Positions 2,665-58,656 of a stretch of 64,000 bases of DNA are shown here, one piece after another (the first letter of the stretch is position 1; every line of letters begins with the position of its first letter). Position numbers and translations under genes: made by a program. Below the pieces are notes generated by a model. The model saw only the letters and a program-made list of their open reading frames with translations, did no database searches and was not told the DNA's origin. This DNA is from Taiwanofungus camphoratus (Eukaryota; Basidiomycota; Agaricomycetes; Polyporales; Taiwanofungaceae), in contig CP021231.1 of the NCBI GenBank assembly GCA_003999685.1, forward strand, positions 1,302,001 through 1,366,000, in the 5' to 3' direction.

Positions 2665-3735
2665 GTGGATCAGTACATTGATCGCTTCGAGCAGGTGTTT
2701 TTGGACAGAAAAGGTCCAAACAAACGTTCACCTGAATTCGCCGACTGGTTGAAGTTCACTTGGTGGCCGGAATTCCGGTGCCAGTTGGCCCAACCAGAAG
2801 GGCGAATGTTGTTCACCGATGGGTCATATGCAAATGCGCCGGCAGTGAGATCTGGTAGCGTGTGGCTCGTCATTGACAGGGAAGACCATGTTGCCCATGG
2901 AAAGTTCGGGCCCGGCAAGGTCCAAAGCTTTGATGCGGAGATGCTGGCATTAGCGCGCGGGCTACGTGAAGCGGTCCGTGACGTTCCTGCTCACATCACC
3001 ACCCTTATAGTCTGTTCTGATAACCAATCAGCACTCGAACGAATCTTCAGGCCGGAAGTCAGACCGTCGCAGATGGCGGCGGTCATGGCTTCACAACACG
3101 TCCGAGCATTCCTCGATGCGGATGAACGCCGACGCATAGTCCTTTTTTGGGTACCATCTCACAAAGGCATTTTTCAGAACGAGTTCGTTGATGAACTCAC
3201 GAAGAAAGCATTGGATGATCCACAACCAGAATTCATCTCACAATCAATGGCCCTCGCTCGCATCAAGGCAAGGGTCAAAAAGCGCTGGGGGACTGTAGTC
3301 GACAATCCCAGCTATTGTGGTCGCTGGTTATGGAAAGTAACCGAAGACGCCCTACCGCTGCACGAAACCACAGCTAAGGGTATGTGGGTCCTGAAGGCAG
3401 CTGGCAAGTCCAACAAGGAGGTGGCACACGTATGCTGTGTGCTCACCAACCATTTCCCAAGCGGCGAATACCGTTCTAGGTTCAATATCCCAGGCCCCCA
3501 CCTTTGCTTATGCGGAGAGGAGGAAACCCGGGAACATGTGCTCTTTGACTGCCCATTTTGGGTTAGAACAAAGTGCCAACAGGGTCCTCATGACCCGCTT
3601 CTGATGGGGCCCCCTGAACAGAGGGGATGGACCCTGGATGACATTATGGAGTTCCTTTGGCTCAACCTGATGGTCTCCACCTTTGATTGGGCGGAAATTC
3701 TGGTGGAATCTCTGCTTGAAGCTGAAGCTGCATGA
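2665..3735 (+). CDS. LINE RNase H domain and C-terminal zinc-knuckle region (partial ORF2)
   Basis: This frame encodes about 356 residues of the C-terminal part of a LINE polyprotein. RNase H1-type motifs appear in order: FTDGSY (first Asp), the FDAEMLALARGL segment (Glu), CSDNQSAL (second Asp) and WVPSHKGIFQNEFVDELTKKA (His and last Asp). They are followed by CLCGEEETREHVLFDCPFW, a CxC..H..C pattern common at the C-terminus of RNase H-bearing LINEs such as the Tad/I groups. The frame stays open upstream of 2665, which is a GTG codon, so this is not a true start but the interior of a longer protein cut by 5' truncation. It would remove RNA from the RNA/DNA hybrid during target-primed reverse transcription. 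Confidence 0.8.
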   Translation: MDQYIDRFEQVFLDRKGPNKRSPEFADWLKFTWWPEFRCQLAQPEGRMLFTDGSYANAPAVRSGSVWLVIDREDHVAHGKFGPGKVQSFDAEMLALARGLREAVRDVPAHITTLIVCSDNQSALERIFRPEVRPSQMAAVMASQHVRAFLDADERRRIVLFWVPSHKGIFQNEFVDELTKKALDDPQPEFISQSMALARIKARVKKRWGTVVDNPSYCGRWLWKVTEDALPLHETTAKGMWVLKAAGKSNKEVAHVCCVLTNHFPSGEYRSRFNIPGPHLCLCGEEETREHVLFDCPFWVRTKCQQGPHDPLLMGPPEQRGWTLDDIMEFLWLNLMVSTFDWAEILVESLLEAEAA

Positions 3736-3762
3736 ACGAGAACATTCACTTGTGCTCGCCTG

Positions 3763-3984
3763 ATGTGCCACACGGTCAGAAGACAAGCGGCATGGCAGCG
3801 GTTCCATGCGGACCGACATTTAGATCCCGGAATGACCACTGCCCTGGGTGGAAAATACCGTGATTTCTGCGAATGGTATGATGCCGAAGCAAAGGTGTTT
3901 GAACTATACCATAATTGGGTAGACGAGGGGATAGCGGAACCCAGTATCCGCGATGACCCCCATGTCTACCTGCACGATAATTGA
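3763..3984 (+). pseudogene. Short LINE 3' reading frame
   Basis: A 73-residue open frame follows the RNase H stop and sits inside the element. Its last 60 bp align with DNA just before the 3' UTR of the second LINE copy (around 59284-59345), so it is part of the element and not a host gene. It may be the end of ORF2 after a frameshift or only 3' leader sequence. No domain was recognised. Confidence 0.4.
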
Positions 3985-4300
3985 GGCCTGAAACCTGTAG
4001 GGCTACACTCAGTTCTTAGGGTGTATTACTGACGGAACAGGATCACTGGGCTGGGTAAACACAGAGAGCGTGAAAAGCGGGTCGGGCGAGGGTCGGGTAT
4101 GGCTTCCTACGGATGACTGTACCCTTCCTTTTGCAGGCCTAGCTGGATTACATGCCCACGCCACATAACGAGGCCACTGAAAACTGTAGGTGTGCTGCTC
4201 ATGCGGGCGCGGATGCCCACTTACTATCATTATTACTCTACATGTACCTACGCCGTATGGAGTATAAACCTGGTGAATTAAAAATAAAAAAAAAAAAAAA

Positions 4301-4808
4301 GTGGGGCCCGAGCATCCCAAGTTGCAATTCTGCGTTGGCGACGCGTCTACAACAGATTCAGCTGTTCTGTTGAGTGTCTGACGAATGTGATCCAGGGGTC
4401 TGAAGAGTGACAGTAGCCCCCGAGGCAAGATTGCAAGCTGCCCTGTTTTATAATTTAATCACTCATACGCCAACGTGTTTCCGCGGGATGGCACGAGTGC
4501 TCCCTTCAAAAATCCCCAAGAGGATATTTCAGCCGACCGGAAATCCACAAGTGCAGGATGGTAGATTTGATATGCCCTAGTGTATACACGTGCACGGAAC
4601 ACAGTACGCTATGGAATATATGCACTCGAACGGCGACAGTAAAAATAAAATGCGCATGGCGGACGGAATGACACAGGATAGATACAGACGAAAGACATTA
4701 CTACAATACCAAGCCATTGCACCTCACGCGCCCCCAAACCCGAAATAGATCACTTCATAACCCGGTCGTCCGAGATACAGCGCTGTGTCGGTCTCATCTC
4801 ACAGGCGA
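4301..4808. other. Intergenic, no gene seen
   Basis: The stretch lies between the LINE poly-A tail and the stop codon of the minus-strand gene at 4809. It probably holds the 3' UTR of that gene. I see no coding or RNA signal. Confidence 0.5.
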
Positions 4809-6812
4809 TCATCCGCGCAATCTCCACCCATCGCCTTTCCTGCTCACGCGTCCGACGCCTCCGAACGCCTCCCGCACGACGAGCCAGAGACCCGTGCAAG
4901 ACACGACGTCCTTGATCTCCTCTGCGGTCAAGATCAGGCCTTCGTTCTCCTTCCCCGGCCCCCCGCCGCCATGTCCGTTTCCCCCGTTGTTCCACCCCGA
5001 GAACGCCTTCCCGATCCCGCCGCTCGCCTTGCTAGGGCTGTACGAGCTTGCGATGGGAGGTCCGGGGGAGAACAGGGTCGGGGACGTAGCGGATGGAAGG
5101 GTCGGCCGTGCGACTCCGGCAGCGGAGACGACGCGCTTTCGTGCTGAGACGTGCTCGACTTCGATGTCGGGGAGGGGGAAGGGCACCTTGAGCAGCGCGA
5201 CGACCTTCGGGTGGTGAGGCGTAGGAACGACGGCCGCGACCTTTATGCGTAGTGTGCCGTCTCGCGCTTGGCCCTGCTGTTGAGGTGCGGATGATGGCGG
5301 CGAGGGAGATGCTGGCAAGTGAGACGATGGCGCAGGCCCAAGCCGGCGGACGACGAGCGTACATGTCCACGGCGTCTCTGAGTCCTCGGGATCGCTACTG
5401 TCTCCATCGTCCCCATCCCGCTCGCCCGTGCTCGTCGTGCTCGTAAGTATGCTCGCGCGCGCAGGCGATGCCGACCGATGCGAGTCAAGCGAGCGGCGCA
5501 CAGCCGCCGGGGATCCCGTCGGCTTCTTCGCAGGGGACTGCGGGGACACCGGCTGGTGCTGCAGCGACGCTGTGGAGGGCGTAGCAGACGAGACGGCGAG
5601 GCTGTGCCGCTTGTTCCGCGTGCGCTCTCCGTCTCGTGAGCGACTCCCAGCCCCATTTCGTTCGCCCCGCGCCCCGCGCCGCCCCCGCCTCGCACTCCGT
5701 CCGCGCACCCACTCGAAACGCACCTCCACCATCTGCTCAATCCCCGTCCCCGCGACGCTCACCCCCGCGCCTAGCCGCACTTCCTGCAGCTTATCACGCA
5801 CGCCTCCGAGCAGGCTCTCTGGGATGCCCTTCAGCCACCTCCGCACTATCCACACGTATTTTGTTGGCCGTCCTTTCGGGGGGAAAGTGGCCGAGATAAG
5901 CGCAGGCTGGATCCCCAGCACAGGGGGCTGCAAAATTGGCTCCTTCTCCCTTTCCCTTTCCCGTTCTCTTTCCCGATCCCGATCGGAGAGCAGGAGTGAT
6001 CCGCGTTTCGAACGGCCCGACAAAGACTCAGATAACCCGCTAGAAGACGCTGCAGGCGATGATGGCGGCTGGCTGGCGAATTTCGTGTGGAACGCGGGTG
6101 AGAGCGGTGTGGACGGCAGAGAGGGCAGCACGGCAGACAGGTCTTTCTTCTTAAACAGTTTCCCGAAGAACTTACGTGAACCGGGTCGCTCGGGCATCGG
6201 GGGCGCCAGGTACGGCGTTCCCGCGATCGGCATGCTCGCCGACGCCGGGATGCTCGCGTACTGCGCGTGCTCGTGCGTGTTGTCCGACGTGAGCGAGATT
6301 GCGGACGACGTCGGTGTGTGCGCAGGCTCAGCCGCGAGCTCCTGGACCGACAGCGGCTGGTCTGCTCCAGAGCCAGCCCCCCACACCTCGATCGGCTCGA
6401 GCAGCGCCAGGTTGATGATCTCCAGCCCGCGCTTGAGGAGCTTGGCGATCTTCGCGTCGGTCCCCGCGTCGACGATCACGTTCTGCATCACATTGTGGGC
6501 TTGCAGGTTGTACAGCGGGATGATCATGCGGCGACCAGAGGAGGTAGATGACGAGGAGGCGACGGACGCAGCAGACGAGTAGGTTGAAAACGTCGAGTTG
6601 TCTGAGCGCGTAGATGATGTGCGTGCGAGCGGGGACTGGTAGACTTCTGCCTCAGCAATTGACTCGCTCGATTGGGGAGACGAGGGCCTATCCTTGGTGC
6701 TGGGTGGCACCAGCTGTACTTGCAGATTCAAGGGGTGGTTGGATTTCGCAGGAGGCGGTCGCACGACAATGAACGACTTGTAGTGAAGGGCGTAAGGCTT
6801 GAACTTGGACAT
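4809..6812 (-). CDS. Conserved basidiomycete protein of unknown function
   Basis: One uninterrupted frame of 667 residues opens with MSKFKPYALHYKSFIVV at 6812 and ends at 4809. Two stretches look folded: the N-terminus (about residues 1-40) and a block near residues 93-145 beginning GRRMIIPLYNLQAHNVMQN. A third conserved-looking block, beginning KYVWIVRRWLKG, lies near residue 320. Between them are long Ser/Pro/Ala-rich linkers, a basic patch FFGKLFKKK and an Arg-Glu repeat near residue 290. The C-terminus ends LILTAEEIKDVVSCTGLWLVVREAF. There is no signal peptide or membrane span. I do not recognise a named domain; the composition suggests an intracellular scaffold or regulator, but that is only inference. 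A long frame on the plus strand across the same DNA is a codon-bias shadow. Confidence 0.8.
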   Translation of the reverse strand: MSKFKPYALHYKSFIVVRPPPAKSNHPLNLQVQLVPPSTKDRPSSPQSSESIAEAEVYQSPLARTSSTRSDNSTFSTYSSAASVASSSSTSSGRRMIIPLYNLQAHNVMQNVIVDAGTDAKIAKLLKRGLEIINLALLEPIEVWGAGSGADQPLSVQELAAEPAHTPTSSAISLTSDNTHEHAQYASIPASASMPIAGTPYLAPPMPERPGSRKFFGKLFKKKDLSAVLPSLPSTPLSPAFHTKFASQPPSSPAASSSGLSESLSGRSKRGSLLLSDRDREREREREREKEPILQPPVLGIQPALISATFPPKGRPTKYVWIVRRWLKGIPESLLGGVRDKLQEVRLGAGVSVAGTGIEQMVEVRFEWVRGRSARRGRRGARGERNGAGSRSRDGERTRNKRHSLAVSSATPSTASLQHQPVSPQSPAKKPTGSPAAVRRSLDSHRSASPARASILTSTTSTGERDGDDGDSSDPEDSETPWTCTLVVRRLGPAPSSHLPASPSPPSSAPQQQGQARDGTLRIKVAAVVPTPHHPKVVALLKVPFPLPDIEVEHVSARKRVVSAAGVARPTLPSATSPTLFSPGPPIASSYSPSKASGGIGKAFSGWNNGGNGHGGGGPGKENEGLILTAEEIKDVVSCTGLWLVVREAFGGVGRVSRKGDGWRLRG

Positions 6813-40995: not shown

Positions 40996-42133
40996 ATGTC
41001 TTTAGGCTCAAACACACTCAACGCCAACTCTCGAGTATGGTTCAGTGAGTTTTCCTTGCTCATGAACGAAGCACGGCGCTGATTGTGGTCCTTCCGCACA
41101 GTCACCGGAAGCTCACAAGGGATCGGTCGTGCGTTACTCGAGGAACTCCTCGTCTCGCGGGAGCGAGTCGTCGCCACATTGCGCAAGCCCGCCGTGCTCG
41201 CCTCCCTCACTCAAAAATACCCGCCTTCCCAGCTCCTTGTGCTTCCTCTCGACGTCACCAAACCCGACCAGATCAAGAGCGCCTTCGAGGAGGTCAAGAA
41301 GCATTTCGGAAGACTCGACGTTGTCGTAAACAATGCTGGTACGCCTCATTCGTGCCTCGAATATGGTTTGATAATGCCCAGATTCCTCCAGGCCAGGGTC
41401 TTATGGCCGAGATCGAGGGCGTCTCGGACGAGGAGGCGCGAAAGCAGATGGACGTGCTCTTCTGGGGCCCCTTTCATGTCATCAAGGAGGCACGTCACTC
41501 GTTCCACACGTCGTTATAGCGAGATTGACAAGTGCTTTCCAGGCCATACCTCTCATGAGGGATGTGAATCCGCCTGGCGTCGGCGGCCGAATTTTGAGCA
41601 TCAGTTCCGCGGGCGGGTACAGCGCCAACCCGACCCTGTCCATATACAGCGCAGGAAAATTCGGTGAGCTGCGCGCGGTCCTCCGCTGCGTCCATCGAGC
41701 TGAATCGCGACATGCCACAGCGCTGGAAGGGCTCACCGAGTCGTTCACGAAAGAGATGGACCCTTCCTGGAACATCAAGGGCGTCATCGTCGAGCTCGGG
41801 GGATTCCGCACCGACTGGCTGTCAAGCTCGATGACGATCAAGCCGCCCCTTCCCCCCTACGCCCATCCCGACTCCCCCTGTGCCTTGTTTAGGCACATGA
41901 GCCTCAACATCCCGTATATCGGTGACCCTGCCAAGGCTCCGAAGGCGCTGATCGCGGTAGCAGGGTTGCCGGACCCGCCGTTGCGCATTCAGCTGGGGAC
42001 GGACTCGATGGCGATGGTGAAGACGAGCGCGAAGAAGACGTTGGAAGATGTGGAGAAATGGGCGGACTTTGCGCATCAGACGAACATGGACGGCGTAGAC
42101 AAGAACCAGGTTCTGGCGATGTTCAACATGTAG
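40996..42133 (+). CDS. Classical short-chain dehydrogenase/reductase
   Basis: Five exons (40996-41044, 41102-41338, 41392-41489, 41543-41663, 41721-42133) join to 305 residues. The product has FITGSSQGIGRALLEELL (TGxxxGIG cofactor site), LDVTKPDQI, VVNNAG, then ISSAGGYSANPTLSIYSAGKF with the catalytic Ser, Tyr and Lys (YxxxK), and GGFRTDW. This is a classical SDR of the fungal type that oxidises or reduces alcohols and ketones with NAD(P)(H). No signal peptide is seen. Its position next to two P450s and two terpene-cyclase-like genes makes a tailoring role in that pathway possible. Intron 3 appears to begin with GC at 41490, because the nearby GT would leave an intron of only 33 nt. Confidence 0.88.
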
Positions 42134-42578
42134 GCCGATGCCAATGTCTGAACGCATGTACTATAGTTGTATGGGAGGTGATACGTGTTTGGGCGCGCTG
42201 TTTTACTCGGTTGGTACTGAGGGAGGATTCTGATAATCGTCGCGGAACGTCTCAGTGCTGGATCGTCCGTGTTGCCTTGTCATTTCTACCGATATCGGTA
42301 CAATTCTGAGTTGCAACAGACTTACGTTCAGCAACATAGATTATTCGAAACTTCCAACGACAACATCACATGAGGGGAAAACACGACAAGCAACTAATTC
42401 TTGAATTTCCCAAATCATTGGCGCGACGATTGCAAGTTATTATTCAGTTGTGGGCTGTCGCCCCACTCACTACAATTTCGTATACTGGCTCAGCGGAACA
42501 TGCTCGCTTCTGACCTGTGCTACCTCCATCAGCTTACCGACCACCTCAGGGAGCGCTCTGCTCTCCGAAGCACTCTTT
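42134..42578. other. Convergent intergenic region
   Basis: The 445 bp between the SDR stop and the stop of the next minus-strand gene show no coding signal. Confidence 0.5.
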
Positions 42579-43317
42579 TTATGTATCTATCACCCAATGC
42601 GGGAAGTAGTCAGCCTCCGTGTTGCACTCTATAGCGTCGCATACCTCCACAGAGTCCCAGCCAGTCATGAACACGTACACATCGTCCTCCTCTATTGTGT
42701 TCCCGAAACACGACGCATGCAGTCCGGGGAGCGGCGGTGAGCCTCCGCCTGCCAGCTGCACGAGGAGCGGGGTGACATCGTCGGCGGTCTTGCCTTCCTT
42801 GAGCGTGAGAAAGGCGATGCTTGAAACGGGTGCACGGATGGCTTTCAGAGCATCTGGCGGACAGGAGACATGATGCGCCTCGAAAGGTCCGGGAAGATAT
42901 TTCGCAAGGCCTTCAGCGACCTCGCCAGAAGTCTCTTTGTCCTGGAGCATTGCCATATGGTCCTCATGGCTTTCCCACACTGAAGATGAATGGAGTGTTA
43001 GGACAGGTCAATCGCGACAATGAAGCTCGCGCCAGGCACCGTTCACAAAGTAGAACGTCTGGTTCTCCACCGATATACCGGTGTGTATTCTATTTAAAAA
43101 CAAGCATGCATCGTGAGCTTCCGAACTGCGTGTTCAGATTATCGCTCCAAACTCACGCTTGCAGACCCTTTACATTGGAGGTGATTCGGAGGGCAGGATG
43201 GATCAACCTTGGATTATCGCGAATGGCCTTGGAGCTTGGGGAAGTGCAAATTTCGATTACGGATGCCATTGGAATCCAGCGCAGCATAATGGCTTGTGGG
43301 TTCTCGGTATGAGCCAT
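42579..43317 (-). CDS. Small protein of unknown function, perhaps a dimeric alpha/beta-barrel protein
   Basis: Three exons (43317-43157, 43089-43040, 42979-42579) join to 203 residues starting MAHTENPQAIMLRWIPMASV. No signal peptide or membrane span is visible. The pattern FYFVNVWESHEDHMAML and FMTGWDSVEVCDAI recalls ferredoxin-like dimeric alpha/beta-barrel proteins (antibiotic monooxygenase or stress-barrel types), in which a W-x-S-x-E/D-x-H strand-helix repeat occurs twice; this is a weak resemblance, not an identification. Such folds occur in fungal natural-product clusters as cyclases, monooxygenases or decarboxylases. Here the gene lies between an SDR and a P450. Confidence 0.7.
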
Positions 43318-43910
43318 GGCACTTGAATACCTCGTTCAGTTGCATCAATCAAAGGGCCGCTTTCTATCACAGTGGCAGACTCCGAGATAGCCATTATTTC
43401 AATTTCGTTCGCTAGATATGGTTGGTCGCAGGACGTGGACCCTGTATGCATGTGTTAGGAGGGTGCTGGAGCAGGATTGACAGAATGAGTACTTCCGATG
43501 AGAAGCACAGCAATGGGTGATAATGCGCACGCTCCAGAAGAACATCTCGTTCATTCGCGCTCAAGGTTGCCAATCTTCAACGGTGGCGCGCGACGAGATC
43601 GGAGTGGAAGAATTTAGGGCACAAGAGAATGTCCCCAGTACGGCATCGTGTGCGAATTCAGTGGTGCACCTGAACCGGATCTGCCAGGCTATTGGTCATA
43701 CAACTTTTTTGGATGCGGCTGATAGCTGGTGAATCATATAGCTCTGATATTTACCCACGATGTCGGATGCTGGTGCATGCTGGCTTTCTAGCAATCTTAA
43801 CAATTGGGGATATGGCTCAGTGGGGATGGACTCAGGAGCCATGAAGTCCGGATTGTGATCGTCCCAAACTGTCTTCGGTCTTCGGTCAAGCGCCTATATA
43901 TAGAGGTCTT
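43318..43910. other. Intergenic, no gene seen
   Basis: About 590 bp upstream of the minus-strand unknown gene. No coding signal is seen; it probably includes that gene's promoter. Confidence 0.45.
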
Positions 43911-44470
43911 TCATTCGGAGCTTGTAAGCATTGCAGAGCGGGAATTCAAATAAGGAAACTCGCTCGCGGAGTAAGAATCCCTGACCTCTACTGCCAGTGG
44001 CGATAAGTACTCTTGAGCATGAAGGTTGAAGAAAGTGTCTAGTCTGCCTGGAAATCCTAGCTCTAAATATCCTGAGCTCAGATTCGTCGTATCTTCTTCA
44101 GTTGTGTGTGGAGACACTTCATCAACTGGAGCAGCGGATGGCAGCCAGTGTAGGGATTCTACTTCGCGCAGCAGGGATAACAATACCAATTCGTTCAAAA
44201 TATGGCTTATTGCTGACGTGGTCCGGTTGGTCAGAACGTGACGCTAGCCTGAGTAAGTGATTAACACCGGTAAGTACTAGACTTGATCGATGTTCTCCTT
44301 CAGCAGTCGGCTCAATTGACTAGTGCATTGATCGTGTCAATGCCACTTTTGGTAATAGCAATCGCATCTCACTACGCATTGCAACAGCGCACTTTGAATG
44401 ATTGTAAGTGAAGACTCCTCAAGATGAATCAGATCCTTGTGTCATGGTGCCACTGTGTGATGCCGGACAA
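43911..44470 (+). repeat. Direct repeat copy 1, upstream of P450-1
   Basis: This block resembles 53884-54455 in the same orientation over about 550 bp, with substitutions and small indels. Matching runs include CCTGGAAA..CCTAG/ACTAG and GTAAGTACTAGACTTGATCGAT. Short open frames occur on both strands in both copies but their start and end points differ, so I read it as the promoter/upstream region of P450-1 and not as a gene. Confidence 0.7.
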
Positions 44471-44578
44471 GTGAAACACTGGATACACTGACAAAGTTCC
44501 CATCTGTCCTAGAGACTGGCGCTTGTATGGAGTATCTATGATACTGAATAAAATGGTAGTACAAACCAGCAGGAAGGT

Positions 44579-46808
44579 GTGTTCTGCATCATGGCACTTT
44601 TACAGATCACGTCTATGACTACACTGCTGGCAGCAGTTGTGTTCGCCTTTTTCTTTTTAATATTCAAGCTGATTCGCCTCGGTCGGCGAGAGAGCTTCCT
44701 TCCTCCAGGTCCGCCGACAGTCCCGCTTCTTGGAAATCTCCACCTATTCCCCAAAAAGGACGTCCACTTTCAGTTGAGTTCCTCTCAATACTGCTATTGC
44801 TGACTTCTTCTCACACTGAAAGCTACCACTCAAGGTTCGCCAAATGGGCTCAAGAATATGGTGAAATTTATAGTCTCAAACTTGGTCCCTCTTCTACAGC
44901 TGTCGTCCTTACTTCGCCTTCAGCGATTCGAGAGCTGCTTGATAAGAACTCTTCCCTGACGGCCGATCGACCCAGCAATCATATGGCAGATGTGGTTGCA
45001 GGTAAAGACCAGCATTTGGTTCTGTACGTCCGTGTTTTATAATACCACATGACAATATTAATTCCACACACTCAGTGCACATTACTGTGAGCATCGAGCA
45101 TCGATATAGACTATCAGACAAGACCAATGACCTAGGGGGATAGCTGACACTTGGAGATCGCTGCGACGCGCCGCGCATGAGATACTGACTCCACAAGCCT
45201 GTCGGGAGCATCTTGCAATCCAACAGGCAGAGGCAACCCAGCTCTCATACGACATACTGACAGACCCGAAGGTAAATACAGACCCGAGCGTGCTATATAC
45301 TTGCTTATTCCTTCCGGCAGAACTTTGCCGACTCAGTGCGTCGCTATGCGCATTCTGTCATCCTCTCTGTGCTCTATGGTAAGCGAGTGCCGCGTTACTC
45401 CACGCCTGGCGCAACTGCGTTCTTTGAGGCGATGCACCAATGGGTGAACCTCCTCGCGCCGGGCGCGCACCCGCCTGTGGATATGATCCCTATCCTTCAG
45501 AAGGTGCCGGAAATGTTCGCGCATTGGAAGCATGTCGCCCAGCAAGTCCGAAACACACAGCGCAAGCTGTACTTTGGCCTGCTGGCCGAGGTTGAGGCGC
45601 GCATAGCTCGAGGCGACGGAAACAACAGCTTCATGGAAACGGTGTGCGAACGGGCCAAAGTCTGGGGCTTAGACATAGAGTTGAGAAGGTGAGTCATGAT
45701 GTGGGACATGCCTGTGATGCACGAGTCATCCCTCATCCATTGTCATGTAGCTACTTGGGTGGTGTCTTGATTGAAGCTGGTTCCGACACCACGTCTGCAA
45801 TCATCCAGTCGCTCATTCTCCTACTCTTGGCAAATCCAGAGGTCCAACGCAAGGCGCAGAAGGAAATAGACGCAGTAGTCGGGCCCGACAGGATGCCGAC
45901 TCTAGGGGACATAGAACGACTTCCATATGTACAGGCTATTATCCATGAGGTACATTTCATTACTTACCATATGAGAATAGTACTTACATTCTAGATATAG
46001 ACTCACAGGTCTCGGCCGGTCACTCCTGTCAACTTTCCCCATGTCGCAATGGCAGATCTCCAGGTTTGGTCCGATTTGCATGATCTGAAATCATGTCTTG
46101 GCTGACTTTTGTCCGCAGTATGGTCAATACGTGATTCCGAAAGGCACTAGTATTTTTGCCAACGCATGTAAGTATTTCATGCATTAGAGCCGCTCGTGCT
46201 AACTTGAACATCGTACACAGGGGGAGTTTACCACGATGAGCGGCTGTTCCCCGATCCTGACAAGTTCTACCCGGAACGCTTCCTAGACCCTGAATCTGAG
46301 GTCGTCAAGATCATTGCTCTTGCGTTTGGGAATGGCAGAGTACGCTGAATGGTTGTTCACTTTGGATGACTAGCTAATAGCCATGGGTAGCGTGCGTGCC
46401 CAGGGATACATTTAGCTAGAAACGCAGTTGTATGTCCCGTTTCGCGTCTCCGATGGTGGGATAGAACACTGACTACTCGTGAAGATGATCAATGCTATGA
46501 ACCTGTTGTGGGGTTTTAATCTTGACAAGGCACGCAACGAGAATGGGCAGGTGATAGAACCTGATACTACAGATTATGCAGTGGTATGGCCGTCCGATAT
46601 TCCGACCGGACAGGAGCTTACAGACAAATTACAGGGAATATCTTACAGCCCCAACCCGTTTAAGTGCAACATTACGCCTCGCAGCGCCCAGCACGCGGAG
46701 ACCATACGTCGCGAGCTGCACACTTGTAGTGAGGCCTTTGCACCGTTCGAACGTGACTTGACGTATGAAGACGCAATGTACGTCCGTGAGCTGCGCCAGA
46801 ATCTTTAA
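44579..46808 (+). CDS. Cytochrome P450 monooxygenase (P450-1)
   Basis: Ten exons give 563 residues from 44579 (559 from the second ATG, 44591): 44579-44772, 44823-45023, 45136-45271, 45321-45688, 45751-45949, 46001-46063, 46119-46167, 46221-46339, 46391-46429, 46485-46808. The second exon could instead start at 44835. An N-terminal anchor ([14 protein letters not shown]) is followed by the proline hinge [13 protein letters not shown]. Further motifs are the C-helix W-R-S-L-R, the I-helix AGSDTTS, a K-helix Glu and Arg (E-T-H-R) assembled across an intron, and the heme motif FGNGRRACPG with the Cys ligand. It would hydroxylate a hydrophobic substrate at the ER with a P450 reductase. The 3' third exists again as a dead copy at 54475-55328. 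The neighbouring cyclases suggest a sesquiterpenoid substrate. Confidence 0.92.
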
Positions 46809-47428
46809 AGGCTTCACAGGATAGGATATGCTAGTCGATTTCGTGATTTAGTTCGTATAAATGTGTTTCAATTGTCTATCGGAGCATTCCAACCATATTT
46901 GATGTCCTTTATTCTCTCATTTACCAAACAGTAACACGATGATACTGATTGTACTGATGAAAGGCTGTTCTGGCGGTCTACTATAATGTATCTTACGAAT
47001 GACGTGCAGAATTGGTTCAGCCGAACGCAATGCCACCGATGTGAAAGAACTGAATAAGTGGCCATTTATCATTGGATTGTGAATCAATTATACATACACA
47101 TCCGTATGGGCCAAATGTACCGCAGATCGCGGCCAAGTCGACGTAGTGTGCACAGTGGAAACTTGCGTAGAAGGCGGTAAGACATAGTATACATGTAGGT
47201 CCGAGTCGGTTTCAACGACTGTTCGCGCGATGCAGCAGCGTGATCTATGGTACCCTAATACAGCGGGACAATAATTCCACATCAGTTTGCATGTTCGTTT
47301 TGCGATGGCAGATAGATTCGAATCAAAGACGTAATGTACAACTGGGGATCTGAGTCAGCGAGAAAAAAGCGCACAGGAGTGATTCAACAATCTCTAGTGT
47401 CTAAGGGTTGTTTGTAGGATTTCCTTCA
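46809..47428. other. Convergent intergenic region, start of left inverted-repeat arm
   Basis: About 620 bp between the P450-1 and cyclase-1 stop codons. From about 46860 on it matches, inverted, the DNA 3' of the second cyclase (57820-58370), so the duplication reaches well beyond the gene. No gene is seen. Confidence 0.6.
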
Positions 47429-49300
47429 TCAAAGCACGTTCCCATCCTCCCCGAGCCTCTCCACAGCCTGAATGGCCTGAATAGCGACTGCAGTCGTCAA
47501 GCCATCGTTGCTAGCCAGTTGCCTGGCCGACGGAAACTTGTAGAAAGCGCTGTTCTTCCAAGAACCGTCATTTTGCTGCATCGCGAACAGCTTTTCAAGA
47601 TCGATATGGTCAACGAGGCCCACGCTCGCCGCGGCATGAATGCGCATCGCCATAGCGAGAGCGTCGCCGTCTGCACCAAACCGCTCGACTACTCTTCTTT
47701 TAAAGACCCCTTCCAACCGCCTTCGTACGTCTGGAGAGCTTTGGATCAGGCGGGAGAGGAAAAAGAGGAATTGTTCCTCTGTCACGTAATAGAGCGTGCC
47801 GGATGCACACGCACGGTTGATCAGGACCTGTTCGACCCAATCCAGTGTCTTTTGAAGCTGGTGCCCACGGCCATACCTATAGAAGAGGGTGAGGACATTG
47901 ACACAGACAACAGGATCTAATAGAAATGTTAAGTACTGTAAAGAACTCGGTCGGCAAAAGGAAACGAACGCACCAATCCTGGGGCGCTTGCAATCGAAGT
48001 ATACCTGAACAATACCATCTTCGTTTTGGTAGGCCAGGATCTCATCCATAACTCTATTTCTAGTCTCTTCGTCGATATATGGAACAACGGTTAAACCTAT
48101 GGATGTAGTATCGAAATCATCGCTACAGCAATGATTAGTGAATTATGGATCCTAGTTAGATAGACAACACTCACGGGAAGTAATTCGTCATGATGAGTTT
48201 CCCCTCCCCTTTCGGATAAGGTTCAGTGAGTGTTCAATAAAGGAAGTTTTCCTGGACGTACCCTGGAAGAAGTTGAATCGGCCCTCATGCCTCACGAAGT
48301 CGACTAGACTTCTATGGAAAATTTCAATTAGACCATGCAATGTCGCGCAATTGTGACTAGCTTACTCGTCGCCAATGGCCTCAAGGATCAACAATTGCGT
48401 GAAGTTCTATCAAACGGCATGTCAAAGACTAGATCGAGGACGGGCAGTATAGAAATGTTATATACTCACCTCGCTCACAATTGTGCCATCTGTGCTAACC
48501 GTATTCAAACATTTCTTATTTGCATAGAGAAAAGATCGTGCGCGGTGAATCGGATCCTCGCATAGGTTTTTCAACTGTCGGATCACGTTGTTGATGTTGT
48601 CAAACACGATTCCGTGCATTCCCGCTGAGCGCGCAGATAAAACATTCTCTATCTTATCGTCGACAAAGACAGTGTTGGGGGGGCTCAGACCGGTCTCGTT
48701 TATGACATACTGATAGAAACCAATGTTCGGCTTGCGGTCATGCGCTTCGGCACTATTTGAGTAGACAATCAAAATAGAGAACGCAAAGATTACCGAAATA
48801 CGTACGAAGGGAAGACTCTGTCAAAAAGAGCCCAATCTGAGAGGTCTGCCCGCGTCTTCAAAAATTCCCAGTCGGGAGCAGATATGTTAGACATTGCATA
48901 GATGGCATGGCCAGAGTCTTTGAGGCTACGGATCAACTGGAGAAGCATTGGGTTGCTCTTGAGCGAGTCGCGAGCTGCTTCGAAGGAAGCTTTGACTTCG
49001 GAAGCATCCACTCCAAATTCCTGAGCAACTTGCCCGTAGGTCTGGGACTCTGTCAAGTTCCCCTTCTCGTACTCAAACCAGGTCAATGAACGTAGTATTC
49101 CCTTGACAATTTTTGGAGGCAGTGGAGATTTAGGTGTTGAGTCGGACCACGTGAAAAGTACGTCGCCTAAGTCAAATATGAGTGTCGTGATGTTAGGCTT
49201 CAATGGTGACTGAGGATGTGTTGCTTTGTTGAGTACGTTTCGCCCTGAGATCTATTAATTAAGTGGTCAGAAAAACGGCAAAAGTTCGCGACATACTCAT
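47429..49300 (-). CDS. HAD-domain / class II terpene cyclase-like protein, copy 1 (AstC/drimenol-synthase type)
   Basis: The gene has eight exons matching copy 2 at 55949-57819, and about 499 residues. The N-terminal half is a haloacid-dehalogenase domain: FDLGDVLFTW (motif I), YAMSNIS (motif II), DRKPNIGFYQ (Lys motif III) and VFVDDKIENV (motif IV), like YihX-type phosphatases. The C-terminal half has DDFDTTSIGL, containing the DxDTT motif that protonates a prenyl chain in class II cyclases, and MQQNDGSW, a QW-like motif. This pairing is known in AstC-type and drimenol synthases, which cyclise farnesyl diphosphate and, in some, remove phosphate. The first exon is only four nt (ATGA, 49300-49297), a pattern shared with copy 2. 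The upstream TTG seen as an open-frame start is internal. No signal peptide is seen. Confidence 0.87.
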
Positions 49301-51024
49301 TGTTGGCTTCGAGATTTGTTGATAGTAGAAGGAGTAGCTACTAACAAGAGAATGGGAAAGGATCTAGCTCAAGCGAGCCTTCACATATCGTTTTTGTATC
49401 CGATGTAATATTGAGCGGCTACATGGAAAGACTCATAAATTCGGGGTATACCCAACCTTCTACAAGCTGGTGACCCGACTACCGGATTCATCGGATTCTG
49501 CGCGGAGCCATGGAATATTACGTACCTGAAAATTTACCGTACATTCGCACGTTGGATGCTTCTTCGAAACGCGAGCTGATTACGGTGCTCAACCGTGGAC
49601 AGGGTGAATCAGTCGCCGTCTTGCTGTGGAACCAACTCGGGCTTGCTTCCTACACCGATAAGAACGCATAGGCTGTTGCGGACCATTCATTCTTGAACGT
49701 AAAGATACTCACCGAAAATCCATGAAGTTTTAGGGTACTAGTCTATTTGGCAGCGCAGGTCTGCGGCATATCATCTAGTGCCTGCCAATACTTAGTAAAC
49801 ACTATCTGTCTTACCTTCCATGTCTCTCTGCCCCCGTGGATGGGCCTACTTCAGTAAAATGTCACACGCATCTAATAAGATCTGAAACCATAAGTGGACT
49901 TCATGGATCCAGATGGTCATTATTTGAAAATTCTAACTAGCACACTTACGGGAAATCCAGGGAGACGTATGAAATTAGACTTCAACTTGTGCGTAAATGC
50001 CAAAAAAGAGCAAGCAAAAAGCACGGGATGTGTATGAGGCAGCCGTGCAGGCTCAGAAGCATCAGACAGCCAGACGGTGACAGTTTCCCCAGATGGCTAG
50101 AGTGGTGGCTCGTCCTGAGAGCGTTTTATTCGCGATCAAAATTTATGTAAAAGTTTACAATCAGTCAATCCCGCCTTGAGCGTCAGATAAGTAGTACGGT
50201 AATTGCTTGCCAGGATTGTTGACGGAGACTACAGATATGGATCGATTGTCATCCATATCCGTTTATGGTCAAGCACTAGGCGACAATCGGCATACTGGGC
50301 CAGAATCATGTCGCATTCCTATCACTGAGTCTAACCCGACTGGACTTGTCTGTGAGTCGAGTTTTGAACTTGTCATTCATGCAGATACAACTACCATTCA
50401 ATAGGATGGACCGACAGCTCACTGTGACTTCCGGTATCATTTGTGTCGTCTCTGCTGGCATTTACCAGTAGCCTTACATGATACGCACGCACTCTCCTGG
50501 TTTATCTATCTGTCTTCTAGCGGGGCAGCATCAGGGTGGCGCTGGAAAAGCCATGTAAATACTGACGTCGCAATCGCCCTCCGCGCATACGCATGAGATC
50601 AGTTGTGGACTCCATTATTTCAGCTAACGTCTGTCGCCTTTCATACGATTCTTGCTCATTACCATCAGTGCTGTTGCGTCAGATTCCGAGTCAGTGCGGA
50701 GCGCTCTTTCAACGCTATCATATTGAACGCTGACGTGTTGAAACTACGATCAGGTCGGGCTCCAAGGACTATTCAAGCTAGAACAATTTTTTTTCGCAGA
50801 ATGGAGGTTGATCTTGATTGCAATCTATTGAGTAATAGCTTTATCGCACTCAGAGGTTGCCGGCATGTTGCGTCATTTACCTCCGGTCTTGGGTGAAGTG
50901 TCGCTGACTTGAGAATATCTGATTTTTCATCTTTCGAACCGTCCCTTATTCCCGGTGGTGATGCCACTTGGAGACCGTTGATATTTCAGTCTCGATCAGG
51001 CCGTCAATGTCCCCAGAACTGCCA
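49301..51024. other. Gene-poor stretch between divergent genes
   Basis: About 1.7 kb. The left half belongs to the inverted-repeat arm and holds a coding remnant at 49515-49672. The right half, 50090-51024, shows no gene. It should contain the promoters of the divergent cyclase-1 and P450-2 genes. Confidence 0.5.
49515..49672 (+). pseudogene. Coding remnant of unknown gene, C-terminal end
   Basis: One frame reads YVPENLPYIRTLDASS, then KRELITVL and LLWNQLGLASYTDKNA followed by a stop. It looks like the end of a real protein but no start or splice plan is visible. A decayed, inverted copy lies at 55336-55450, where LWNQLGLAS can still be read. I do not recognise the family. Confidence 0.45.
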
Positions 51025-51032
51025 TATAAATA
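51025..51032 (+). promoter_or_regulatory. TATA box of P450-2
   Basis: A perfect TATAAATA lies 50 bp before the P450-2 start codon at 51082. Confidence 0.55.
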
Positions 51033-51081
51033 GATCGTATATCGTATTGGCTGTCTTAATCGTACTGTCCAGGAGACGAAG

Positions 51082-53658
51082 ATGATTGTACTTTCGTTCA
51101 ACTTGTCCTGGCCAATCTTGACCAGCATCAGTCTTATGGCTGCGGTGGTATGCGCCCGCGCATTGAAGATGATGTTTAAAAAGTCATCATACGCACACCT
51201 TCCTAGCCCAAAGCCCAATACATGGATGGGTACGTTGGTATATGTTATTCAATTCTTCAGTGATTGATTCTGGTTTTGACTCTATCTTTCAGGCTACCTA
51301 CCGGACATGCATGACATGGATTCGCTCGAATACCATTATACGATGTGTGATAAGTATGGTCATGCCGTCAGACTTCAAGGCGGCCTAGGCGGGGTGATTG
51401 CGCATTGCTGTTCTGTCTCTCTGCTGTTGTCTATAAAATTAATGCGCATCGCTCGTTTAGCTTCAAAAAGATGCACTCTATATCACCGATCCCTTGGCAC
51501 TCAACTCCATTCTTGTTCGGGATCAGTACAACTTCCCAGAGTCCACAGAATTTGCAGGGTAAGCAAGCAATAGCAACATTTCATTTGCAGACTCGTCCGT
51601 TAACAATCATGGACGTTTCGTCGATGTTAGGCTGTTCGGTATAGTTCATCATGGAAGTCCGCTCCCGTGTGTAACAGGCACGTTTGTTCGGTTGAATTGT
51701 ACTGCCAAAGAAAAGGGACTGAAACCGTTTGTACCGATGGCTAGGCTCAGAGCACAAAAGGCAGCGAAAGATACTCAACCCCATCTTTACTGCGTCTCAT
51801 GTAGCCAAGTTGATGCCCTTGTTTTACAATGTCGCATATCAGGTATGTAGCTTATCCTTCGAATACGTGTATAGCTCAAAGTGGTTTTAGTTGCGTGACA
51901 GAATCGCTTCAGAGCTGGAACACAAGCCTGCCGCGTATAGGCTTGATATCCTGGATCACTTGACCAGGACGGCTCTCGAGCTCGTTGCCCAAGGTGGTCT
52001 TGGCCATACATTCAACTCATTCGAGAAAAAAAATGAGTTTCAGGACTTTTATGAGGCATTAAGGATGATTCTGTATGTTCAGATAGTATCCCCGAGTCCT
52101 GGTGCATTGAGCTTACTTATCGCTTGGTCCTATACAGTCCTTGGGCTAGTAGGCTCTTCATCGTACTTCCATACCTACAGACCTGGCGGCATCTAGAACC
52201 TGTTTGGCTGCGTAATGGGCTGTCCAGAGCTATCGGCTATATCCCATGGCCTTCTGCACGAAAGGCAGGTCTGACTGTCATTTCATATTGTGTCTGACTG
52301 ACTCGCAGCAAATTCTTGCAGTTCAAGAAGTGCGTTGATGTCATGCATCCCGTCTTCCGTGACTTGTATAAAGCAAAGAAAGCGATGTTTGATCAATACG
52401 GTGTTGAGGAGCTGAGGAAGACTGCAACTGGCGGAAACGACCTCGCAAGTGTCCTCAGTGAGTGTAACGCTCTCATATCCCCTAGAGGGCCTCATAACAT
52501 TGTCATCATGACAGTGCAAGTTAATGCGGAAGCAGATGAAGAAGATAAGCTGAGTGACGAGCTTGTCATTGCTACCTATAGGTGGGTCTTATGATCCAAT
52601 AGAGAAGAAGGATTTGCCTAATGAACATCATTCAGCGCTATCATCCACGGCGGCCAGGAGACGACCTCTGGTGTGCTTTCTCGCCTACTATCTCTGATGG
52701 CCAAAGATACAGATCTCCAGGAGCGACTCCGAACTGAAATCAGGGACGCACAAACGGTATGCATCTGTGCAGTTGAACTAAAGTCACTCATACTGACCGG
52801 GCATTTATTCAGAAAAAGGGCAGTGGCGAAGAGCTGGCTTACAGTGAACTGAACTCGCTTCCCCTTCTGGACGCTGTGTGTAGAGAGTTCCTCCGACTCT
52901 TTCCTCCTGTCACGTTTGTATGGCGAGAGTATGATCATTTCATCAGAACATCTCATCTCGGCATTCCGCTCATTGACTTGGAAACACAGAACCAAGGAGG
53001 ACTGCGTCGTGCCTCTTCAGTTCCCTATTCGCGATCCAGTGACGGGTGCACAGACAAGCGAACTACTCATCACGCAAGGGACGTCAGTTTATATCGGGCT
53101 TGCAGCTCCCAATATGTCCCGCGCAATCTGGGGAGATGATGTCCATGAATTCAAGCCGGAAAGATGGTTCAACAAGATGGGGACAGAGACTACCGAAAAC
53201 AGCATCAAGATGCCTGGGATTTATGGCAATATGTCAGTTCGCTGAGATATGCGGAACCAATTTGTGTAGTTTACTAATCAACTTATAGGATGACATTCCT
53301 GGGCGGCGGAAGGGCTTGCCCGTAGGTCTTTTTTCTATTTGAGAAATACGAAAAGCGACTCAAATGTGGTATGGTTCTGTGAATAGTGGCATGAAATTTG
53401 CGCTGCTTGAAATGAGTGTGTCGTCTCATTGTTACTCGTTGTATATTGATTACTATGTCCGTTTCAGAGCTCGTCCTCTCTGTCATCCTTCCGGCCTTCT
53501 CTTTCGAAGAAGCCGAGGAGATTGTGTGGCGCTTAGGAATCACTGTCGTCCCGCTTATCAAGGGAAAGGAGGACAAGGGTCTCAGCGTCCCGATGAAGGT
53601 TAAATCGCTGTTAGTACTTCTTTATCTGGCATTGTTAAAGTACAGCATTGACGTGTAG
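51082..53658 (+). CDS. Cytochrome P450 monooxygenase (P450-2)
   Basis: A multi-exon P450 from a family distinct from P450-1. The start gives a membrane anchor (LTSISLMAAVVCARAL). Recognisable parts in order are YLPDMHDMDSLEYHYTMCDK, YITDPLALNSILVRDQYNF, the helix-C-like HKRQRKILNPIF, GGLGHTFNSF, the I-helix HGGQETTSGVL, the K-helix E-F-L-R (AVCREFLRLFPPV), the PERWF motif and the heme motif FLGGGRACPG, completed across an intron, then MKFALLEM. The join between about 51550 and 51735, around the expected start of helix C, could not be resolved: no splice plan gives a normal FGxGLL..HxxQRK segment, so the gene may be damaged there or my model incomplete. The 3' end is also uncertain. It sits between the two cyclase genes and may oxidise their product. 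Confidence 0.8.
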
Positions 53659-53883
53659 TTATGACTCCCATATAGCTTGTCTCATTAGATCTGCGAGAAG
53701 ACGTCGAGTTGAGGCCAGGCAATCGCCTGGCTACCATGCTTGTCTAGAGCCAGAAACGTTTCTCCGTTGTGAATTATATTCGTGCTGAACTTACTGTAAT
53801 ATACTTCATGTTCATATGGATCTCATTATCTCCTGCTGAATGAGGTGAGGTCCATAATGCTTGCCAAGTGCTAACCTCCGTAC

Positions 53884-54455
53884 TTACAATATAGTAAGGG
53901 AGCCGGCTCCGAACGCGCTGAGACGATTGCTAAGGATTGCTGAGTTTCGATTAATACTCCGAAGGGTCTGCACTTCACTTGATCCAGTCCTTTGACCTCT
54001 GCTGACAGTAATAGCGTTACGGATGATGTTACTGAGCATGAAGGAAGCGTCTCGTCTGCCTGGAAATACTAGTTCCAAATATCCTGAACTCAGATTTGCC
54101 ATATCCCATTGTGCTTTGTGTGTGGAAACACTTAAACTGGAGCGGCCTGTGAATGGCATCTGGTGTAGGGATTCTCTTTCACACAGCAGGAGTAACAATA
54201 CCAATTTGTTCAGGATATGGCTCGTTCTTGATGTGGTCCAATTGGGCAGAATGTGACGCCAGCCTGAGTAAGTGATTAATACCGGTAAGTACTAGACTTG
54301 ATCGATATGCTTCAAGAGTCGGCTCAAATGACTAATGTGTCGATTGTGTCAATGCCACTTTCGATAATGGCAATCGCGCCTCGCTACACGCTGCGACAAC
54401 GCGCTTTGAATGATTGTAAGTGAAGGCCCTTCAAGATTGCCGCTGTGATGCCAGA
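53884..54455 (+). repeat. Direct repeat copy 2, upstream of the dead P450
   Basis: This is the second copy of the 43911-44470 block, in the same orientation. It runs straight into the 3' part of a P450-1 copy, so block and gene were duplicated together. Confidence 0.7.
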
Positions 54456-54474
54456 CAAGACTACAAGCCATCAA

Positions 54475-55328
54475 TCATGAGGCACATTTCATTACTTGCA
54501 TGAGAATAGTACTTACATTTTGAAGATAGACTCACACGTCTCGGCCGGTCACTCCTGTCAACTTCCCCCATGTCGCAATGGCAAACCTTCAGGTTTGTTC
54601 CAAATTGCATGCTCTGAAATCACGCCTTTGTTGACTTACGTCCGCTGATGCAGCATGATCAATATGTGATTTTAAAAGGCGCTAGTACTTTTTCCAATGC
54701 ATGCAAGGATTTCATACATCAGAGTCGCTCGTGCTAATATCGCACACATGGGGAGTTTACCCACGGTGAGCGGCTGTTCCCTGATTCTGACAAGTTCTTC
54801 CTGGAACGCTTACTAGATCCTGAATCTGACGCCGTCAAGGTCATTGCTCTTGCGTTTGAGGATGGTAGAGTACCCTGGCTGATTGTTTACTTTGGGTGAC
54901 TAGCTAATAGCCATAGGTAGCGTGTGTACCCGGGGATACATTTAGCCAAAAACGCAGTCCATTTCGCATCTCCAATGATGAGATTGAAAATTGACCATTG
55001 GGAAGATGATCAATGCTATGAACCCACTGTGAGGTTTGAACCTTGACAAGGCATGCAAAGAGAATGGGCAGGTGATAGAACCTGATACTACAGATTATGC
55101 AGTGGTATGGCCGTCCGATATTCCGACCGGACACGAGCTTACAGACAAACTACAGGGAATATCTTACAGCCCAATCCGTTCAAGTGCAACATTACACCTC
55201 GCAGTGCCCAGCACGCGGAGACCATACGTCGCGAGCTGCACACTTGTAGTGAGGCCTTTGCACTGTTCGAACGTAACTTGGCATATGAAGACGCAATGTA
55301 CGTTCGTGAGCTGCGCCAGAATCTTTAA
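54475..55328 (+). pseudogene. Truncated copy of P450-1
   Basis: From about 54475 to 55328 the sequence follows P450-1 from the K-helix intron to the stop codon. About 1.47 kb, covering the membrane anchor through the I-helix, is deleted at the junction (near 54455-54480). The remaining exons carry disabling changes: the heme motif FGNGRRACPG has become FEDGR/RVYPG with the Cys ligand changed to Tyr, an early TGA replaces the TGG of the last exon (from 55005), and one base is missing near 55170. It cannot make a P450. The last 200 bp are nevertheless very close to the parent, so the copy is not ancient. Confidence 0.9.
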
Positions 55329-55335
55329 CAGCGTG

Positions 55336-55450
55336 CAGGAAGCAAGCCCGAGTTGGTTCCACACCAAGATGACGGCCGATTCACTCTCTATTAGCAACCG
55401 TAATAAACTCGCGTATCGAAGAAGCAGCCAGCGTACAAATGTACAATAGG
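55336..55450 (-). pseudogene. Decayed copy of the unknown coding remnant
   Basis: On the minus strand this reads like the segment at 49515-49672, with LWNQLGLAS preserved, but other parts have shifted frame. It sits directly after the P450 pseudogene's stop codon. Confidence 0.4.
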
Positions 55451-55948
55451 TTCGTGGTACGTAGCATTCCACGACTCGGCGCAGATTCCCAGATCGTTAC
55501 CGCCTGGCTGCCTGATGCGTACAAACACGTCTTATCGACGAATACACATCCTGTGCCTTTTGCTTGCTCTTATTTGGCCTGTATGCACCAGCTGAAGTCC
55601 GATTTCATATGTCTCAATGAAATTCCTGTAAGTGGGCTCATTAGAATTTCTAGACAATGACCATCTGGATCCATGAAGTCCACTTCTGAACCAGATGCCT
55701 TTCAGGGTTGGATAGGTTCAGACCTTGTCAAATGCGTGTGATGTTTAACTGTTGCCGATGAAACCGGAATGCGAGTCATCAGCTTGTACAAGGTTAGGCA
55801 TACCCCGAATTCATGAGTCTTTCTATGTAGCCGCTCAATACTACACCGGGTACAAAAATGATATGTGAAGACTCGCTTGAGCTAGATCCTTTCCCATTCT
55901 CTTGTTAGCAACTACTATCTCTTCCGTCAACAAATCTCGAAGCCAACA

Positions 55949-57819
55949 ATGAGTATGTCGCCAACTTTTGCTATTTTTCTGACCACCTAATTGATGGATC
56001 TCAGCGCGAAACGTACTCAACAAAGCAACACATCCTCAGTCACCATTGAAGCCTAACATCACGACACTCATATTTGACTTAGGCGACGTACTTTTCACGT
56101 GGTCCGACTCAACACCTAAATCTCCACTGCCTCCAAAAATTGTCAAGGGAATACTACGTTCACTGACCTGGTTTGAGTACGAGAAAGGGAACTTGACAGA
56201 GTCCCAGACCTATGGGCAAGTTGCTCAGGAATTTAGAGTGGATGCTTCCGAAGTCAAAGCTTCCTTCGAAGCAGCTCGCGACTCGCTCAAGAGCAACCCA
56301 ATGCTTCTCCAGTTGATCCGTAGCCTCAAAGACTCTGGCCACGTCATTTACGCAATGTCTAACATATCTGCTCCCGACTGGGAATTTTTGAAGACGCGGG
56401 CAGACCTCTCAGATTGGGCTCTTTTTGACAGAGTCTTCCCTTCGTACGTATTTCGGTAATCTTTGCGTTCTCTATTTTGATTGTCTTTTCAAATAGTGCC
56501 GAAGCGCATGACCGCAAGCCGAACATTGGTTTCTATCAGCACGTCATAAACGAGACTGGTCTGAACCCGTCCAACACTGTCTTTGTCGATGACAGGATCG
56601 AGAATGTTGTATCCGCACGCTCAGCAGGAATGCACGGGATCGTGTTTGACGACATAAATAATGTGATCCGACAGTTGAAAAACCTCTGCGAGGATCCGAT
56701 TCACCGCGCACGATCTTTTCTTTATGCAAATAAGAAATGTTTGAATACTGTTAGCACAGATGGCACAATTGTGAGCGAGGTGAATATATAACACTTCACA
56801 TACTGCCCCGTCCTCGGACTAGTCTTTGACATGCCGTATGACAGAACTTCTCGCAATTGTTGATCCTTGAGGCCATTGGCGACGAGTAAGCTAGTCACAA
56901 TTGCGCCACTTTGCATAATCTAATTGAAAATTTCATAGAAGCCTAGTCGACTTTGTGAGGCATGAGGGCCGATTCAACTTCTTCCAGGGTACATCCGGGT
57001 AAACTTTTTTATTGAACACTCACTGACCTTTTGCAAAAGGGGAGGCCAAACTCATCATGACGAATCACTACCCGTGAGTCTTGTCTATCTAACTAGGATC
57101 CATAATTCACTAACCATCGCTGTAGCGATGATTTCGATACTACATCCATAGGTTTAACCGTTGTTCCATATATTGACGACAAGACTAGAAATAGAGTTAT
57201 GGATGAGATCCTGGCCTACCAAAGCGAAGACGGCATTGTGCTGGTATACTTTGACCACAAGCGCCCCAGGATTGGTGCGTTCGTTTCCTTTTGCCGACCG
57301 AGTTCTTTACAGTACTTAGTATTTCCATTAGATCCTGTTGTCTGTGTCAATGTCCTCACCCTCTTCTATAGGTATGGCCGTGGGCACCAGCTTCACAAGA
57401 CACTGGATTGGGTCGAACAGGTCCTGATCAACCGTGCGTGTGCGTCCGGCACGTTCTATTACGCAACAGAGGAACAATTCCTCTTTTTCCTCTCCCGCCT
57501 GATCCAAAGCTCTCCGGACGTACGACAGCGGTTGGAAGGGGTCTTTAAAAGAAGAGTAGTCGAGCGGTTTGGTGCAGACGGCGACGCTCTCGCTATGGCG
57601 ATGCGCATTCACGCCGCGGCGAGCGTGGGCCTCGTTGACCATGTCGATCTTGACAAGCTGTTCGCATTGCAGCAAAATGACGGTTCTTGGAGAGACAGCG
57701 CTTTCTACAGATTTCCGTCGGCCAGGCAACTGGCTAGTAACGACGGCTTGACGACTGCAATCGCTATTCAGGCCATTCAAGCTGCGGAGAGGCTCAGGGA
57801 GGATGGGAACGTGCTTTGA
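55949..57819 (+). CDS. HAD-domain / class II terpene cyclase-like protein, copy 2 (AstC/drimenol-synthase type)
   Basis: Eight exons (55949-55952, 56005-56455, 56497-56779, 56845-56885, 56939-56988, 57040-57073, 57126-57274, 57332-57819) join to exactly 499 codons plus stop. The order of domains is as in copy 1: HAD motifs FDLGDVLFTW, YAMSNIS, DRKPNIGFYQ and VFVDDRIENV, then DDFDTTSIGL with the DxDTT cyclase motif, and LQQNDGSW. The C-terminal helices (RRVVERFGADGDALAMAMRI) match class II cyclase beta-domain style. The two proteins differ at scattered residues (for example VYFDHKRPRI for VYFDCKRPRI) while all motifs and splice sites are kept, so both are probably functional. Expected substrate is farnesyl diphosphate and product a drimane-type alcohol or phosphate; this is inferred from the family. 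Confidence 0.88.
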
Positions 57820-58656
57820 AGTAGATGGCATCCTACAACAACCCTTAGACACTAAAAATTGTTGAATCACTCCTGTGCGCTTTTTTCTCATTGACTCAGA
57901 TCCCATTACGTCTTTGATTCGAATTAATCTTCCATCAAGTAATGAAGGTGCGAATTGATGTGGAAGCAGTGTCTCGCTGTATTAGGGTACCACGAAACAG
58001 TCATTCATTGACACCGACTCGGACTCACACATATGCTCCGTCTTACCGCCTTCTAATCAAACTTCCATTGTGCACACTACGTCAAATTGGCCGTGATCTG
58101 GAGTACATCTGCCAGCCCATACTGATGTGTATGTATAATTGATCCATGATCCATGACAACCGATCACTTATTCAGTCCCTTTACATCGGCAGCTTTACAT
58201 CTGGCTGATCCAATTCTACATGCGAATACCTTCAGAGATACGTATGTTATAGTAGACCACCGGAATAGCCTCTCGCCAGTATCATCAATATCACTATGCT
58301 GCTGTTTAGTGAATGAGAGAATAAGGACATCAAATATGGTTGGAATGTGCAGATTTCATCATCAGACATATAGCAACAGGTATTGAACCATTCTCACTCA
58401 TTCATCTGTAAAAATGCGAATTCAATTGGCCTTGCATCTCTTATAGGTACTCTATGCCCCTCGAGTTTTAAACACCTCATTTTTGGCCTTCAATTTTCGA
58501 CACGGTTTAAAACATGTTTTTAACTATGTCAATAACTACCTTGTCGAAAACTATGTAGTTTTACCCGGAACAGTAGTCGTGACGCGGTCCGACCAGGTCA
58601 TGACCGGGTCGGACCTCAAAAGGTTGAAAAAGTCAAGAGTCAAGGGATGACCTGCA
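57820..58656. other. 3' flank of cyclase 2 and intergenic DNA
   Basis: Up to about 58370 this is inverted-repeat arm. The rest is AT-rich and shows no gene; it contains a palindromic GGTCATGACC near 58597. It ends at the left target-site copy of the LINE-derived insertion (58644-58656). Confidence 0.5.

Follow-up and report, generated by a model that had tools for sequence, protein, structure and literature searches.

Paired HAD-type class II cyclase genes in Taiwanofungus camphoratus and their probable relation to the antrocin cluster

Two nearly identical genes for HAD-type cyclases lie in one gene cluster of the basidiomycete Taiwanofungus camphoratus, and this locus raises the question of whether they yield one product or two, and in which pathway. 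The window analyzed here is the whole stretch of 64,000 nucleotides (nt) corresponding to positions 1,302,001 to 1,366,000 of the forward strand of contig CP021231.1 (GenBank assembly GCA_003999685.1), for which an earlier reading of the letters (the original prediction) had proposed a sesquiterpenoid gene cluster built around the cyclase pair. Our analysis indicates, with a probability of roughly 90%, that the window carries the antrocin (anc) cluster known from Antrodia cinnamomea, or the equivalent locus of a very closely related fungus, with cyclase copy A corresponding to AncC and copy B to AncA, the chemistry proposed below included. With high probability the cluster has already been published; what the reading of raw sequence picked out is real and matters chemically.

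The paired cyclase genes

The two genes and their signature motifs, the latter read directly from the DNA, are located as follows (window positions).

47429..49300, minus strand: cyclase copy A, 8 exons, 495 amino acids (aa), probably AncC
48104..48121, minus strand: DDFDTT codons of copy A
47558..47578, minus strand: QQNDGSW codons of copy A
55949..57819, plus strand: cyclase copy B, 8 exons, 495 aa, probably AncA
57127..57144, plus strand: DDFDTT codons of copy B
57670..57690, plus strand: QQNDGSW codons of copy B

All gene models are hand-spliced predictions, selected by open frame, splice sites and family motifs. Both copies contain seven introns of 51-65 nt and have full open frames, in which an N-terminal HAD phosphatase domain is joined to a DxDTT class II cyclase domain. 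DDFDTT occupies residues 285-290 and QQNDGSW residues 447-453 of copy A, both strings also occur in copy B, and the two proteins are identical at 464 of 495 residues. The paired HAD/cyclase genes are confirmed as real, with similarity far above chance. The two intact genes with DDFDTT and QxxDGSW described in the original prediction are therefore present, although the length of 499 residues stated there is replaced by 495 in the hand-spliced models.

In a phmmer search against PDB proteins the top match was AstC (22TZ, E 1.5e-94, residues 23-484), followed by AsDMS (9MHS, E 1.2e-57), with the best plain HAD phosphatase, YihX, at E 7e-12; the isolated AstC cyclase domain also matches across the C-terminal part of the window cyclases. 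Mutations of D271, D273, T274, N324 or Y361 abolish the activity of AstC, according to passages of the study describing it (PMC13244436), and these residues align with D286, D288, T289, N340 and Y377 in both copies. The alignment comprised 15 rows (A, B, AstC, AsDMS and 11 of 12 bacterial loci), which are not independent, as nine of the 11 bacterial loci are Flavobacteriaceae or Aquimarina by title. The twelfth locus (L029), from a Candidatus Uhrbacteria metagenome-assembled genome, was omitted because its match is weak and covers the cyclase domain in part (27% identity, E 2e-4). D286, N340, Y377, Q447, D450, G451 and W453 are identical in 15/15 rows, whereas D288 is kept in 14 rows, the exception being the D273N crystal mutant of AstC, and T289 likewise in 14. 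Membership of the window cyclases in the AstC/drimenol synthase family is thus supported, and their class II chemistry would follow by homology. The comparison with AstC and drimenol synthases that had been suggested as a check returned these enzymes, and not plain HAD phosphatases, as best matches, in agreement with the family and the class II chemistry originally assigned.

At the HAD positions D26 and D180, 13 of the 14 rows bearing this domain have aspartate, AstC being the exception. The window cyclases share with AstC of Aspergillus oryzae (astellolides) the two-domain architecture, the DxDTT acid-base pair and 39% identity, but they keep the catalytic residues of the phosphatase site, where AstC has E13 and a DN pair and is described as lacking phosphatase activity (passages of PMC13244436). 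At these HAD positions they agree instead with the active AsDMS, a bacterial drimenol synthase in which FDLGDV, DDK.EN, DDLDTTS and R.RID are near-identical to the window enzymes; overall identity to AsDMS is 32%, and it carries Y, F, A and F at four selectivity positions where the window has F, Y, F and A. Phosphate loss is likely in the window enzymes, since their HAD residues are kept, unlike those of phosphatase-inactive AstC. AacA, according to the same passages, removes one phosphate (PMC13244436).

Relation to the antrocin cluster

As cited in passages of later papers (PMC12001456, PMC12282579), Chen et al. (2023) found that the antrocin cluster of A. cinnamomea (= T. camphoratus) encodes two HAD-type cyclases. 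The occurrence of two cyclase copies, considered unusual in the original prediction, is therefore already a feature of the published cluster. Passages of PMC10608071 give (+)-albicanol as the product of AncC (gene ACg006375) and trans-gamma-monocyclofarnesol as that of AncA (gene ACg006372), and two P450s, AncE and AncB, are reported alongside AncC (passage of PMC11035983). Two P450 genes also lie beside the cyclases of the window.

44591..46808, plus strand: P450-1, 11 exons, 560 aa, heme motif FGNGRRACPG, Pfam p450 E 4.4e-79
51082..53658, plus strand: P450-2, 15 exons, 575 aa, heme motif FLGGGRACPG, Pfam p450 E 7.2e-51

Beyond the species, the two HAD-type cyclases and the two P450s, the comparison with AncC and AncA was made through printed residues and motifs. 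Copy A contains DDKIE and copy B DDRIE, the motifs printed for AncC and AncA, respectively (PMC10608071). F271, Y459, F461 and A468, named for AncC in passages of PMC12365925, stand at the same numbers in copy A and recur in copy B. In addition, B and A are separated by two gene-like features, which fits the numbering ACg006372 and ACg006375. A more distant likeness is seen in Sanghuangporus, where a HAD-type cyclase gene of AncA type also belongs to a basidiomycete gene cluster; its product is 54.1% identical to AncA and tied to abscisic-acid-related compounds (passages of PMC12001456).

The whole genome (33.19 megabases, 15 contigs; the window is C12, 1302001-1366000) was searched with the last-exon frame of copy A, which returned the pair A/B, one relative on contig C11 and one fragment on C8, and with the cyclase part of AstC, which returned the pair and the C11 relative. 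These searches ignored introns and scored the best candidates only, and are thus strong without being exhaustive; by elimination, A/B should be the pair that was published. The C11 relative (C11:402500-410500, about 3540-5073 of this locus, L013, minus strand) has a HAD part 41% identical and DDLDTG in place of DDFDTT; in-frame stops, some of which may be introns, occur in the aligned stretch, and it may be a gene or a relic. The C8 sequence (C8:949500-956500, about 3287-3762 of this locus, L014, minus strand) is a cyclase-domain fragment that shares about 40% identity with copy A and contains in-frame stops; no HAD part was detected in this locus, and the fragment looks like a relic.

Self-comparison of the window revealed how the pair is arranged.

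47112..50035, no strand: inverted duplication, left arm pieces (I1-I8)
55542..58111, no strand: inverted duplication, right arm pieces (I1-I8)
54039..55328, plus strand: P450-1 relic copy, consisting of the upstream stretch and the C-terminal third of P450-1

The cyclase genes form the two arms of an inverted repeat with 94% similarity across 1,043 and 799 nt, and 348 of 381 aligned intron sites are the same in both. Synonymous divergence (dS) is 0.13, and the ratio of nonsynonymous to synonymous divergence (dN/dS) is 0.22 for the whole protein, 0.13 for residues 1-205 and 0.30 for residues 206-495; judged by these values, both copies seem to have been kept functional by selection after a fairly recent duplication. 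The P450-1 relic, absent from the original prediction and added here, is a direct and broken copy (54039-54437 at 80% for the upstream stretch, 54476-55328 at 86% for the C-terminal third), with about 1.5 kilobases missing between its two parts. Together with P450-2 it is situated between the cyclase copies, and such a truncated P450 goes unmentioned in the passages of the citing papers that deal with the anc cluster. A block of P450 and cyclase was probably duplicated and the cyclase inverted, the second P450 then decaying; the relic is a record of how the duplication arose.

Alternative readings and ring closure

Several points weigh against the assignment. The match to the Anc proteins is based on four numbered residues, two motifs of five letters each and the gene content, and the naming of A and B would depend on one K/R difference, as the four AncC residues occur in A and B alike. 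DDFTDD is printed for both Anc proteins in passages of PMC10608071, whereas the window has DDFDTT, and we take the former as a misprint. Several residues of the AstC diphosphate site are altered (S35, C38, T264, Q265 and K451 correspond to G50, R53, I278, M279 and A464, and K314 to R330), which counts against a simple transfer from AstC. The species was approached through three of the primer pairs (at least 11) listed for A. cinnamomea in a passage of PMC9455894: all three forward primers have one exact match each in this genome, a reversed control has none, and the partner primers give products of 178, 207 and 175 bases, compared with the published 178, 152 and 175. The atg5 product thus exceeds the published one by 55 bases, a surplus for which one intron would account. 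These matches place the genome in A. cinnamomea or a very near relative. The exact matches of the three pairs speak against a sister species (e.g., a different Taiwanofungus) with an orthologous cluster whose products are antrocin-like or otherwise derived from albicanol, and not antrocin itself, but the primer matches and the residue numbers would suit a close ortholog as well, and we regard such a sister-species origin as improbable.

Assignment to the anc cluster also implies that the two copies differ in product, and it could be argued instead that A and B share one product, the duplication only boosting dosage. Their 94% identity and dN/dS of 0.22 would agree with this, and so would the distribution of the 31 substitutions between them: 22 fall within the cyclase part, where two of 23 tested AstC pocket and catalytic residues differ (F283Y, AstC F268; K460R, AstC H447). 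A hand calculation (22 x 23 / 290) gives an expectation of about 1.7, so that a clustering of differences in the pocket, considered as a candidate, was not supported for lack of enrichment. On the other hand, the products published for AncA and AncC differ (PMC10608071), if A and B are these enzymes, and among the 15 rows tyrosine at position 283 is confined to copy B; a shared product seems slightly less probable still than a sister-species origin. That the genes encode ordinary HAD phosphatases carrying some unrelated domain at the C-terminus is scarcely credible: Pfam and NCBIfam score only the HAD part well (two HAD families exceed the Pfam cut-off), but the matches to AstC, to AsDMS and to the AstC cyclase domain alone extend across the C-terminal part, and the catalytic cyclase residues are kept.

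With copies A and B taken as AncC and AncA, the original suggestion of dosage or two products would be settled in favor of two products and not of dosage, and the proposed drimane-type product would hold for AncC, (+)-albicanol being a drimane, but not for AncA, whose product is monocyclic (passages of PMC10608071). Two enzymes 94% alike and differing by a whole ring closure would then provide a compact test of how a class II cascade ends. We tentatively suggest that the pair, with 13% silent divergence, represents a young natural switch between two rings and one, in which F283Y of copy B is a main cause of the one-ring stop, though this is rather doubtful. Position 283 is F in 13 of the 15 rows and in the C11 relative, and L in one bacterial locus (L028). 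As the selectivity residues of AncC are reported as already mapped in a passage of a review (PMC11026467), the role of F283Y may be known. The L028 locus itself (3001-3663, Paraliomyxa miuraensis) has a 394-aa open frame that aligns to the cyclase part only and contains DxDCT; its protein is perhaps a stand-alone cyclase without a HAD domain.

The gene models, the motifs, the duplication and the host, to the species or close to it, are shown by the present data, whereas the reactions, products, dimer and gene names are drawn from published relatives, as follows. Farnesyl diphosphate would be bound in the cyclase domain, where Asp288 of DxDTT would protonate the terminal double bond with the assistance of N340 and Y377. 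Ring closure would then yield two rings in A and one in B, the final proton being taken by Asp286 or by a water molecule that Asp286 holds. The HAD domain, which retains D26, S120/N121, K155 and D179/D180, would remove phosphate with a metal ion, and the enzyme is probably a dimer in which a given product is processed by the HAD domain of the other subunit; in passages of the work on AstC and AacA, the product is handed to the HAD domain of the partner subunit (PMC13244436). The P450s would subsequently oxidize albicanol toward antrocin-type lactones.

Neighboring genes

Two further genes lie on the left side of the cluster.

40996..42133, plus strand: short-chain dehydrogenase/reductase (SDR) gene, 5 exons, 305 aa, Pfam adh_short E 6.8e-37
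42579..43317, minus strand: small gene, 3 exons, 203 aa, possible alpha-beta barrel (ABM-like)

The two P450s and the SDR placed beside the cyclases in the original prediction are recovered as open models with Pfam p450 and adh_short matches. For the SDR, five model variants are open, and the variant retaining the NNAG motif was taken; its third intron would be GC-AG. In P450-2 an alternative seventh junction gives 579 aa, and one of the two versions would have a GC-AG seventh intron. The small gene, whose start codon was picked by eye, is present as predicted, whereas its supposed barrel nature corresponds to a sub-threshold match to Pfam ABM (E 0.0023, 18.5 bits, below the cut-off of 23.1); searches of NCBIfam, and of PDB up to E 10, gave no match for this protein. 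Far to the left of the cluster, at positions 2665-3735 of the plus strand, a 356-aa open frame reads by eye like a mobile-element protein of RNase H type.

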